Origin: Candidatus Limicola stercorigallinarum
GTDB lineage: Bacteria > Actinomycetota > Coriobacteriia > Coriobacteriales > Coriobacteriaceae
NCBI GenBank assembly: GCA_018711625.1
Contig: DVID01000026.1
Coordinates: 1-45,723 of the forward strand
DNA: 45,723 nucleotides
Direction of reading: 5' to 3'
This document shows positions 13,071 to 18,886 of the stretch, one piece after another; position 1 is the stretch's first letter; the number at the start of each line of letters is the position of its first letter. A model generated the notes under the pieces. That model was not told where the DNA came from. It ran no database searches and saw only the letters and a program-made list of their open reading frames with translations. Made by a program: the position numbers and the translations under genes.

Positions 13071-13193
13071 GCGTCGCCGCCATCCGCCCCTTCCCGTTCC
13101 CGCCGTTGCGTGCACCGCCCCGCGAGTTGCGGCTCTTCATGTCCAGAATTCCTCGAAAACAGGGGAGGAAACGGACAAAACGAGCCGCAACGG
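13071..13193. repeat. Structured direct repeat, copy A
   Basis: 123 bp that match copy B (18764-18886) at all but four positions with no gaps. A nested hairpin lies inside: GTTGCGGCTC (13126-13135) with GAGCCGCAAC (13182-13191), TGTCC (13140-13144) with GGACA (13173-13177), and TTCCTC (13149-13154) with GAGGAA (13165-13170). Weaker similarity extends about 10 bp upstream. It sits between the M32 start and the 3' end of the glucoside PTS operon. Confidence 0.9.
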
Positions 13194-13199
13194 CAGGCA

Positions 13200-13259
13200 C
13201 GGTGCACGCAGCAGCTTGCCGGGTGCACGCAACAGCTTGCCGGACGCACGCAACAGCGG
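13200..13259. repeat. 21-bp tandem repeats next to copy A
   Basis: Two units of about 21 bp (core GTGCACGCAACAGCTTGCC) and a third partial unit (GACGCACGCAACAGC) directly follow the 123-bp repeat. A related array follows copy B. There are no spacers, so this is not a CRISPR. Confidence 0.7.
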
Positions 13260-13311
13260 ACGCGGGGCGGATAGCGATGATGCGTCAGTCTCATCCGCTC
13301 CGTCTGTCTAG

Positions 13312-14733
13312 TTACAACTGGTTTCCGTTAGATGAGATGACGTTGCGATACCACGCATACGACGCTTTGGGCACGCAAGCTCCCGTGCCATGACCCTCGT
13401 CATCGTAGTCGACGTACACGAGGCCATAGCGCTTCTCCATCTCGCAGCCGTTGCCGCTCACGATGTCGAAGGGCGCCCACATGGTGTATGCAAAGATATC
13501 CGTGCCCTCATCAATGAGCTCTTTGAGCTGCACGATGTGTCTCCGCAGATAGTCGATGCGATATGCGTCGTCGATAGGCTCCGTTTTTCCGCGGCCCTCG
13601 TCAACACCGATACCGTTCTCGGCGATCATCATCGGCACCTGGTAGCGGTCCCAATACGATGCCATGGTGGTGTAGAGGCCGGTGGGGTCGATGGTCCACC
13701 CCCATTCAGTCGCTGTGGTGTGTGGGTTTGGAACTCGTTTTCCTTCAGTGTCGATACAGTGCGAGTAGTAATAGGCGACTGCCAGGAAGTCGGCGGTGTG
13801 TTCACGCAATTGTTCCTCGTCACTTGGCGCCATCTCGATATGCGCACCTATGCGCTCGAAATACTTAAGCGCATATCCGGGGTATGAGCCTCTGAGCGCG
13901 ACGTCGGAGAAAAAGAAGTCCTTCATGCGGTTGGCGTTGAGCGCGCGCTTTACGTTCTCTGGGTTGCTTGTGAGGGCATACGTGAGACTGTCGGCCAGCA
14001 TGACGCCAATCCGCAGTGCGGGATCGATGCGCCGAGCCGCCTCGACCACCCGCGCCCCGGCGACGAGTTGGTGGTGCACCGCCTGGTACTTCGCTGCCTC
14101 AAAGTTCTCGTATTCGTCCATAACCATGCCGAGGGAGCTGAACGACTCGCCGAAGATAAGGTTGATCTGGTTGATGGGAATCCAGTACCGGACCTTGTCG
14201 TGATACCGATTGAGGATAGTTTCTGCGTAGCGAACGAACAGGTCGATGGTTGCGCGCCCATACCATCCCTGATAGCGCGTGACCACGTCGATGGGCATAT
14301 CGTAGTGGCTCATGGTGACGATGGGCTCGATGCCGTGGGCAATGAGCTCGTCAAAGACCTTGTCATAGAAGGCGAGACCGGCTTCGTTCGGCTCGGAATC
14401 GTCGGCGTGGGGGAAGATGCGCGCCCAGCTGATGCTCATACGGAACGCCTTGAAGCCGGCGTCAGCCATGAGCTGTATGTACTCGGGGTAGCGGTGGTAG
14501 AAATCTACGGCGCGATGCTTGGGATAGTACTGCAGGGGTTCATCGCTCGATGCGTCTGCGATGCGCTCGTCGAGCATTGTGCGTGTGTAGTTGATGTTTC
14601 CCAAGCCCGCTTTGCCATTGCAGCGGAGCTGGATATCGGCGACGTTGAGCCCTTTGCCTCCCTCGCGGAAACCGCCTTCTGCCTGTACGGCGGCGATGGC
14701 GCCGCCCCAGAGGAAGCCATCCGGCATGCTCAT
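13312..14733 (-). CDS. GH1 6-phospho-beta-glucosidase-like enzyme with Gln at the acid/base position
   Basis: 473 residues from the ATG at 14733, which overlaps the IIA stop as ATGA. The GH1 barrel starts with [18 protein letters not shown]. The nucleophile motif is AENG (Glu372). Ser426, Lys434 and Tyr436 in [12 protein letters not shown] form the 6-phosphate-binding signature, so the substrate is probably a phosphorylated beta-glycoside delivered by the adjacent PTS. The acid/base motif, normally NE(I/P), reads PINQIN: Asn188 is kept but Glu is replaced by Gln189 (codon 14169-14167, CAG). Such a change is known in plant myrosinases, which cleave S-glycosides. The enzyme may therefore prefer thioglucoside-6-phosphates or activated aglycones, or use another acid. 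Last gene of the IIB-IIC-IIA-GH1 operon. Confidence 0.88.
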
Positions 14734-16688: not shown

Positions 16689-16867
16689 TGTCCCTCCTTT
16701 ATTCGGGGTGAGTGTTGCCACTATTGTTCAGGCATGAACACGGGGTCTCAACTTGCATTGCTTCACCCTTTGGGGCGATATCAAGTTTTTCGCATAGCAG
16801 TGAAAGAAATTCATTTGCGGTGGCAGCAAGGCCTTTGGGACAATGGGTGCACACGGGAGGGGGCGCC
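16689..16867. promoter_or_regulatory. Divergent promoter region of the glucoside PTS locus
   Basis: 179 bp between the IIB start and the regulator start. An inverted repeat GTTCA-N4-TGAAC lies at 16726-16739 and could be an operator. On the minus strand TTGAGA and AACAAT are spaced 17 bp and overlap that repeat, giving a plausible weak promoter for the PTS operon. No antiterminator-type terminator is visible in the leader, which fits a DNA-binding activator rather than an RNA antiterminator. Confidence 0.4.
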
Positions 16868-18757
16868 ATGAACAAGAACCACGAACGGGTCATCGCCCTT
16901 CTTGAGGGGGCCGACACCCCGCTCTCTTCCATGCGTCTTGCCGAGCTCATGGGGGTGAGCGCTCGTTCTGTCAAGAGTTACATTCGTCAGATAAACAGCG
17001 CGAAACCGGGTCGTATTCGTTCGACCCATCGCGGTTATCTGCTTGAGCAGGGCGCCCGGCCATCCCAGGTCGCCCCAGACGACGTTCCGCAGACGTACGC
17101 GGAGCGCAGCCAGCGCATCATCCACCGTTTGCTCATTGAGAATGCCGAATCCGTGGACATCTACGAGCTTTGTGATGAGCTCTGCCTGAGTTATTCGTCG
17201 GTGAAAGGGCTCATCGGGCGAATGAACCAGGAGTACCGTGGCCTGCGTGTTGTGTTTCGGTGCCGCGCGGATCGCGTGTGCCTTGAGGGCGCGGAGCGTG
17301 ACAAGCGGCGTTTCCTCACCCGTGCCATCTACCGCGAATCGAGCGGGTACTTCGTCGATCGCAACGCCATCAAGGAACTGTTTGGCGAGCACACGATAAA
17401 CACCATCGACGAGGTCCTGCAGGGGGTTGCTTGTGAGCACGGCTTGAGTGCGAGCGAGTTTGGGTATGCCAATCTCTTGCTGCACCTTGCTATATCCGTT
17501 GATCGGGTGAGGAGCGGTAACGCCCTCGCGATCTCCGACGGGCTTGGCCCGGTTGAGCTGCAGCGCGACACGATTGAAATCATTGATGGCTTGCAAGCGC
17601 GTTTTGGGATTGTTTTCGACGAGATGGAGCGTCGCGCCCTCGATGAACAGGTGCGTACCAACCTGTTGGCGCATTCTATGAGCGAGACGGAGCGCATCAT
17701 CGCGGACATCGGCGAGGACAATTACAGTATTACTGCGCAGGTGATTGATGCGGTCAACGGCCGCTACCATTTGCGTCTCAATCATGAGACCCTTCAGCTT
17801 CCGCTTGCCTTGCATGTGAAAAACCTTGTGACGCGTTGCCGCCGCGGTACGGTACTTCCCAACCCTTTTCTCGAGACCATGCAGGTTTCGTGCCCGGTGC
17901 TATTCGATTGTGCGGTGTTTGTGGCCGAGATTATCCAAAAAGAGTTTGATATCGAGATACCCAACGATGAGGTGGCATACCTTGCGATGCATATTGGTGC
18001 GGATATCGAACGACAAAACCGGGACGACGGGAAGCTCTCCTGTGTGCTGTTGTGCCCCGATTATTACGGCATGCGTGATGAGCTCGTAGCCCATCTGCTC
18101 AACCATCTGGGCCAGCAGATTGCGTTGACAGCTGTGTGTGGCCACGAGGATGAGATTCCCGATACGCCGTTTGACGTGTTGATTTCAACGGTGAACCCTT
18201 CGCGAGCGTATCGAAATGTTATTGTCATTCCGCCCTTCAAGACCGCGGTGAACATGAAGGAACTTGTTGGGAGGCTGCAAGATATTGCAGATCAGTGCAA
18301 GCTACGCGCTATTGCCTCGTCATATCGGACGTTTTTCCAACCTGACCTCTTTCGAGTGTTTGGAGGCGCGTCCGAGCGGCGCAACGAGGTTATCCGTACC
18401 CTCACCGGGCTGCTTATGAAATATGGGTATGTGTCGGAAGGGTTCCTCCAGGATGTCATGCGCCGCGAAGAGGCGGCTTCGACGGCGTTTCGTGATGTCG
18501 CCGTTCCGCACGCGATGAATATGAGCGCACACCGCACAGGCATTGCGGTTGCTGTTGCCCCGGATGGTATTGCGTGGGGAGATCGGTATGTGCACGTCGT
18601 GCTCTTGATTGCAATTGAGGAGCATGATTTGCCTGTGTTCCAAGAGCTCTATGAGGCGCTTATCTTGCTGTTTTCAAGGGAGGAATTTGTGACGGCAGTG
18701 CGCCAATGCGCCTCATTTGAGACGTTTGAACAGCTGCTGTTCATGTACTCGCAATAG
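16868..18757 (+). CDS. PRD-containing PTS-regulated transcriptional activator (BglG/LicR/MtlR type)
   Basis: 629 residues from the ATG at 16868 (GGGAGGGGG upstream). Two helix-turn-helix regions come first (about residues 1-60, with MRLAELMGVSARSVKSYIRQIN, and 75-130). Two PRD domains follow (about 170-395, with the likely phospho-histidines in LLHLAISVDR and YLAMHIGADIER), then a IIB-like domain (about 400-490) and a C-terminal IIA(Fru/Mtl)-like domain with VPHA. Such proteins activate a sugar operon when the PTS state signals substrate. The divergent placement points to the adjacent IIB-IIC-IIA-GH1 operon as target. Its stop codon lies 7 bp before repeat copy B. Confidence 0.9.
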   Translation: MNKNHERVIALLEGADTPLSSMRLAELMGVSARSVKSYIRQINSAKPGRIRSTHRGYLLEQGARPSQVAPDDVPQTYAERSQRIIHRLLIENAESVDIYELCDELCLSYSSVKGLIGRMNQEYRGLRVVFRCRADRVCLEGAERDKRRFLTRAIYRESSGYFVDRNAIKELFGEHTINTIDEVLQGVACEHGLSASEFGYANLLLHLAISVDRVRSGNALAISDGLGPVELQRDTIEIIDGLQARFGIVFDEMERRALDEQVRTNLLAHSMSETERIIADIGEDNYSITAQVIDAVNGRYHLRLNHETLQLPLALHVKNLVTRCRRGTVLPNPFLETMQVSCPVLFDCAVFVAEIIQKEFDIEIPNDEVAYLAMHIGADIERQNRDDGKLSCVLLCPDYYGMRDELVAHLLNHLGQQIALTAVCGHEDEIPDTPFDVLISTVNPSRAYRNVIVIPPFKTAVNMKELVGRLQDIADQCKLRAIASSYRTFFQPDLFRVFGGASERRNEVIRTLTGLLMKYGYVSEGFLQDVMRREEAASTAFRDVAVPHAMNMSAHRTGIAVAVAPDGIAWGDRYVHVVLLIAIEEHDLPVFQELYEALILLFSREEFVTAVRQCASFETFEQLLFMYSQ

Positions 18758-18763
18758 GAGGCC

Positions 18764-18886
18764 GCGTCGCCGCCATCCGCCCCTTCCCGTTCCCGCCGTT
18801 TCGTGCACCGCCCCGCGAGTTGCGGCTCTCTAAGTCCAGAATTCCTCGAAAACAGGGGAGGAAACGGACAAAACGAGCCGCAACGG
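18764..18886. repeat. Structured direct repeat, copy B
   Basis: 123 bp, same orientation as copy A (13071-13193), four mismatches, no gaps. Three mismatches fall in or beside an unpaired bulge of the predicted hairpin, leaving the two outer-most and inner-most stems intact. It starts directly after the regulator stop, so the glucoside PTS cassette (~5.6 kb) is bracketed by the two copies. Confidence 0.9.

Follow-up and report, generated by a model that had tools for sequence, protein, structure and literature searches.

It is mainly in their sugar systems that gut bacteria differ, and many such cassettes lie between core genes without a visible route of entry. Composite transposons, and cassettes flanked by direct repeats or by miniature inverted-repeat transposable elements (MITEs), hold their cargo between alike repeats. 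The ends of elements of the Tn7, Mu and Tn552 type contain arrays of transposase sites of about 19-23 bp (about 22 bp in the Tn7/Mu type), and integrons use the IntI integrase and one attC site per cassette, the arm ends of attC being opposite to those described below. Here we describe R, a dispersed palindromic repeat whose array architecture is unusual and which tends to bracket cassettes, on the basis of two copies, R1 and R2, in a stretch of 45,723 nucleotides from Candidatus Limicola stercorigallinarum (contig DVID01000026.1; the whole stretch is called the window) and of their relatives in other genomes. The presence of R at the edges of extra genes in two species hints at an undescribed way to gain or lose cassettes. 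A repeat that marks both edges also offers a concrete handle on such events, since strains or metagenomes can be screened for circles, one-copy sites and deletions between R copies.

Like a composite transposon, a pair of R copies encloses cargo that could be deleted by way of direct copies; it differs in that R is only about 110-330 bp long and contains no gene of an insertion sequence, and in that no mobilising enzyme or defined target-site duplication was found. R is a short, non-coding element with inverted ends around its hairpin (GTTGYGTGCACC ... GGTGCACGCAAC), as a MITE is. Its regularly spaced inward sites, about two helical turns apart, may be compared with the ends of the Tn7, Mu and Tn552 type, although in R the arrays stand back to back within one element, with no established terminal TG/CA and no transposase genes. 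Unlike attC sites, R has GTT...AAC arms and lies at both ends of multi-gene cassettes. Some integration hotspots lack mobile elements, and homologous recombination in the core genes on either side has been proposed to explain them (Oliveira et al. 2017, PMC5635113). The present loci share with them integrase-free accessory cassettes between core genes and junctions that are reused across lineages, but here alike repeats stand at both cassette edges. Finally, R resembles repetitive extragenic palindromic (REP) sequences, bacterial interspersed mosaic elements (BIMEs) and REP doublets forming hairpins (REPINs), with their REP-associated tyrosine transposases (RAYTs, TnpA-REP), in being a dispersed, extragenic, imperfect palindrome with alike close pairs (PMC3116915, PMC3733652, PMC2817692). 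It differs from these in its convergent 20/21-bp arrays around a long hairpin and in that R pairs bracket whole cassettes.

Repeat pairs around accessory cassettes

R1 and R2 are the sole family of direct repeats of at least 40 bp within the window. The initial annotation reported two 123-bp copies in the same orientation, with four differences, at the edges of a phosphotransferase system (PTS) cassette. This description is correct, and the ungapped homology extends to 198 bp with 88% identity. The most conserved part is the 123-bp stretch (13071-13193 and 18764-18886), where 4 of the 123 positions are mismatched (13108, 13137, 13138 and 13140). The components of the two copies are as follows.

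13065..13262, + strand: R1, full ungapped homology from the direct-repeat comparison
18758..18955, + strand: R2, oriented as R1, starting directly after the regulator stop codon
13126..13191, no strand: central hairpin of R1, GTTGCGGCTC...TGTCC...GGACA...GAGCCGCAAC
18819..18884, no strand: central hairpin of R2, from the pattern match
13105..13125, + strand: one inward 21-bp unit (GTTGCGTGCACC plus 9 bp), left of the R1 hairpin, from the sequence
13192..13254, - strand: three inward 21-bp units (...GTGCACGCAAC), right of the R1 hairpin, from the sequence
18885..18948, - strand: inward units right of the R2 hairpin, from the sequence, with register and unit sequence unlike those of R1

The chance expectation of the hairpin pattern in the window is 0 matches, and the R1 hairpin (13122-13190) folds with a minimum free energy of -30 kcal/mol and a z-score of -4.6. 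The repeat in the window has no Rfam match at gathering level.

Related copies were collected from the window's own genome (G000; 1.96 Mb in 49 contigs) and from two congeners, Collinsella sp. An2 (G002) and a third genome, G001. We call two R copies less than 10 kb apart a near pair, and assess significance by permutation. In An2, 4 of 12 near pairs reach an identity of 0.85 versus 4 of 516 distant pairs (33 copies, p=1e-4); the same comparison of the first ten An2 copies gives p=3e-4. In G000 the effect is weaker (p=0.03), owing to one unlike copy among the close neighbours, C35d. Listed below are the alike pairs with the genes that they bracket; identity is 0.89 for the window pair (W1/W2), 0.97 for C35a/b and 0.87-0.96 for the four An2 pairs, against an average of about 0.65-0.66 in distant pairs.

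Window pair R1/R2, direct, 5.7 kb apart: PTS-GH1-regulator cassette between M32 and pheS
G000 C35a/b, inverted, 1.4 kb apart: AbiEi-like gene between tmk and topA
An2 C42a/b, direct: orthologue of the G000 AbiEi-like gene between tmk and topA
An2 C1a/b, direct, 7.8 kb apart: GntR-PTS IID-amidohydrolases-BtpA between dnaX and ybaB-recR
An2 C1c/d, direct, 6.2 kb apart: RpiR-PTS IIBC-GH1-GH5-like-IIA between uvrA and def
An2 C1:131994/133828, direct, 1.8 kb apart: Fic gene between gatB and a solute-binding protein gene

PTS sugar systems thus account for three of these six cassettes. The AbiEi-like genes of G000 and An2 are 72% identical.

Cassette-free versions of these junctions are found in relatives. 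The window cassette is a lineage-specific insertion, because M32 adjoins pheS with neither cassette nor R copy in five relatives (An2, G022, G016, G003 and G008). The uvrA-def junction lacks the cassette in G000, G001, G005, G006, G017 and G022, as does dnaX-ybaB-recR in G000, G005, G006 and G017, and tmk-topA is closed in G001, with a gap of 75 bp. By parsimony on these gene orders, the PTS cassettes are lineage-specific gains.

The reading that we tentatively prefer, at slightly less than even chances, is that R copies serve as portable homology: through exchange between copies, cassettes would be inserted and deleted and the copies themselves homogenised. Recombination between copies, probably RecA-dependent, would be the driver. 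The PTS/GH1/regulator block was gained in this lineage at M32-pheS. A cassette would be inserted by exchange between an R already in place and one on an incoming segment. Recombination between the direct copies R1 and R2 would delete the cassette or swap it for another R-bounded one, and the same exchange would keep the two bracketing copies alike.

The window cassette and its surroundings

The gene content given in the initial annotation, IIB-IIC-IIA-GH1/regulator between M32 and pheS, is borne out by Pfam, and its statement that the cassette lacks a transposase or integrase also stands, as none occurs among the Pfam matches of the cassette genes.

11486..13006, - strand: left core neighbour, peptidase M32 (PF02074)
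13312..14739, - strand: GH1 glycosidase, 6-phospho-beta-glucosidase-like (PF00232, 7.5e-106; NCBIfam 6-phospho-beta-glucosidase, 1.8e-141, under the curated cut-off)
14728..15111, - strand: PTS lactose/cellobiose IIA (PF02255)
15113..16372, - strand: PTS IIC (PF02378)
16371..16688, - strand: PTS lactose/cellobiose IIB (PF02302)
16712..18757, + strand: HTH-PRD-EIIA2 transcriptional regulator, divergent from the PTS operon (PF00874, PF00359)
19188..20411, + strand: right core neighbour, pheS (PF01409), followed by pheT

R1 occupies the gap from the 3' end of the GH1 gene to the 5' end of M32, and R2 ends about 37 bp upstream of the pheS T-box leader. Both transcription units of the cassette are directed outward to the core genes, with R1 and R2 at their 3' ends. 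This placement, together with the position of the other bracketing copies, also behind gene 3' ends, and with the strong hairpins, would suit bidirectional terminators or insulators that are selected at cassette edges and are not recombination substrates. We consider this explanation very unlikely: U-tract terminators are not above chance (4 found, 5.7 expected), some R copies lie between divergent genes, and such a function does not require sequence identity specific to a pair.

The G+C content is 55-56% in the cassettes versus 60-66% in the flanks. Comparable sets (regulator, IIB, IIC, GH1) occur at other sites in further genomes of the family, with protein identities of about 28-54%. A phage or plasmid origin of the window cassette was considered and rejected; plasmids gave weak glycosidase-type matches only, and phages a single weak match to an unannotated record. 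An An2 element gave no match, and viral contigs contained none.

The pheS leader (18992-19246) scores 47 bits against RF00230 (E 2.2e-9), where the Rfam gathering score is 93. It is a divergent T-box that is missed by default annotation.

Reuse of the insertion junctions

Accessory genes lie between core genes with turnover among lineages at all of M32-pheS, uvrA-def, dnaX-recR and tmk-topA. An alternative account is that these are ordinary integration hotspots, in which double homologous recombination occurs in the flanking core genes, while R colonises or is kept at the new edges and gene conversion makes neighbours alike. This account is somewhat unlikely in our estimation, though it draws on a published mechanism that needs no mobile-element genes (PMC5635113). 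It is consistent with the different R-free insertions at M32-pheS, uvrA-def and dnaX-recR in G001, G009 and perhaps G006, and with the tmk-topA brackets, which are not the same in the two species although the gene that they enclose is orthologous. By itself, however, it predicts neither the excess pair similarity in An2 nor the presence, in two species and at several loci, of closely alike pairs exactly at both insertion edges.

Several observations also weigh directly against exchange of cassettes through R. The M32-pheS junction of G001 holds another gene without R, and is longer in G006 and G009; G009 moreover carries R-free insertions of 8-12 kb at uvrA-def and dnaX-recR, with no edge-like bracketing repeat of at least 40 bp. 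Because of such insertions, these three junctions must be regarded as hotspots whatever R does, and R is not required for insertion there. An empty site with one R was not found, all empty sites examined being without R. Many R copies are solitary, and some close neighbours are unlike (e.g., C35b/C35d, 0.58; the C14 pair, 0.62), and an identity of 0.85 is also attained by four of the distant pairs in An2. At tmk-topA, the bracketing copies are unlike between the species, and are direct in An2 and inverted in G000. These last differences are easier to reconcile with homogenisation of copies that had already arrived than with the entry of gene and brackets as a single unit.

The suggestion of the initial annotation that the repeats are a substrate for gain and loss is accordingly upheld in part: the insertion is lineage-specific and alike pairs bracket other loci, but R-free insertions occur at the same junctions, and comparison of the M32-pheS interval yielded cassette-free sites in five relatives with a single repeat copy in none. 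Its alternative, an element common throughout the genome that happened to flank the cassette, is not borne out. Against hundreds of copies with the M32-PTS-pheS order fixed in all relatives, G000 has about a dozen, linked to cassettes at several loci, and five relatives lack the cassette; genome and family searches rule out a high-copy interspersed element.

The gene between M32 and pheS in G001 is a single open reading frame (L171 5985-7812) that by eye resembles an Ntn-hydrolase (bile-salt-hydrolase-like).

Architecture and distribution of the R family

All good copies follow a common plan, in which a central imperfect hairpin is approached from both sides by inward-pointing units that start with GTTGYGTGC. 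The hairpin reads GTTGCGGCTC...GTCC...GGAC...GAGCCGCAAC in G000, and its centre is GGCC/GGCC or GTCC/GGAC in An2. The number of units varies, the outer units degrade and the edges are ragged. Unit spacing is strict: in An2 it is exactly 20 bp in 120 intervals, the next commonest spacing occurring only 4 times, and in G000 21 bp is the commonest. As many as 249 of 273 units point inward and 24 outward, where shuffling leads one to expect 14-19 per class. The An2 copies C1c and C1d differ by the gain or loss of one entire 20-bp unit. The spacing of two helical turns suggests, from the sequence, protein sites aligned along a single face of the DNA, and from the strict spacing and convergence of the arrays one would predict a DNA-binding protein, which can be searched for.

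Such arrays might instead be bound by a dedicated enzyme, a candidate recombinase or transposase that moves R-cassette-R or R alone. The strict periodicity with convergent units, the dispersal of R to dozens of An2 sites and the insertion of bracketed cassettes in otherwise conserved junctions are in line with this possibility, which we regard as quite unlikely. No target-site duplication can be defined, as edges are ragged and the empty sites of relatives are too divergent for the insertion to be located; unit number varies; no transposase or integrase occurs among the Pfam matches of the bracketed cassette genes examined; and the sole REP-type Y1 transposase of G000 is flanked by another palindrome, GGGGACGTGTTC/GAACACGTCCCC. 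A further proposal, which we regard as unlikely, is that R pairs constitute a new cassette-mobilising element of the Coriobacteriaceae, bound by a putative genus-restricted protein, through which small metabolic (PTS) cassettes, and toxin- or defence-like ones, would be moved or exchanged between core genes without a recombinase of their own. The AbiEi-like protein was rejected as a partner enzyme of R, since its family is common across the Coriobacteriaceae and most copies are in genomes without R.

For the census, 67 genomes of the family were searched with a covariance model derived from eight copies; a second model raised the An2 count. About a dozen copies were found in G000 (the window pair and about ten diverged relatives), about 33 in An2, which is a chicken-caecum isolate (PMC6069880), and 1 in G001, whereas REPs and REPINs usually exceed 100 copies per genome. 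Matches above threshold are confined to these three genomes of the genus, with none in the other 64. In a public genome collection, Collinsella sp. An2 alone had several contigs that matched an array pattern; a wide taxonomic spread was rejected because nearly all other records have a single match, which is the chance level. As judged from these searches, R is so far known only in this genus, and searches of open-licence full texts returned no description of it in Collinsella or Coriobacteria.

One solitary hairpin element is shared by G000 (C49, L094 8884-8994) and G001 (C3, L162) with 95% identity. Core proteins of this species pair are about 71-93% identical, so the element is unusually conserved for intergenic DNA.

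We also rejected R as a RAYT/REPIN system, since the only Y1 transposase gene of G000 carries a different palindrome. This RAYT-like gene (NCBIfam REP_Tyr_transpos, 77.4 bits; cut-off 80) lies between other palindromes and is therefore not an obvious partner of R. By eye, but with no systematic test, no GTAG/CGTC tag was seen in the R hairpin arms. The gene itself, on C44, is accompanied by a HAD gene, and the two are bracketed by the GGGGACGTGTTC/GAACACGTCCCC palindromes (L222 5790-5878 and 7435-7528), forming a REP-RAYT system.

Other palindromes and arrays were noted in the course of this work. The window contains a different long imperfect palindrome at 3624-3768 (AAAAAAGTGCGCCATTTCAGTACG...), a relative of which lies between dnaX and recR in G000 (L177); it probably belongs to a second family of dispersed palindromes. 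At dnaX-recR in G000 (L177, about 4700-5900) and at M32-pheS in An2 (L096 8530-9264) there are further palindromes, with different arms (GATGCGCTACGTTTCGGTCA... and TTAGTCCAGCAACTAC...) and similar-looking centres, which are possibly a superfamily with exchanged arms. G009 (genus g4) has three 64-bp palindrome-like repeats around its M32 gene (L180 40-103, 2060-2123 and 3553-3616). In G006, which belongs to another genus, inverted arrays that repeat every 30 bp (GTCCAAATCTCGCCCGACAACGCC...; L183 9482-9667 and 13484-13668) show an analogous architecture with a different sequence.

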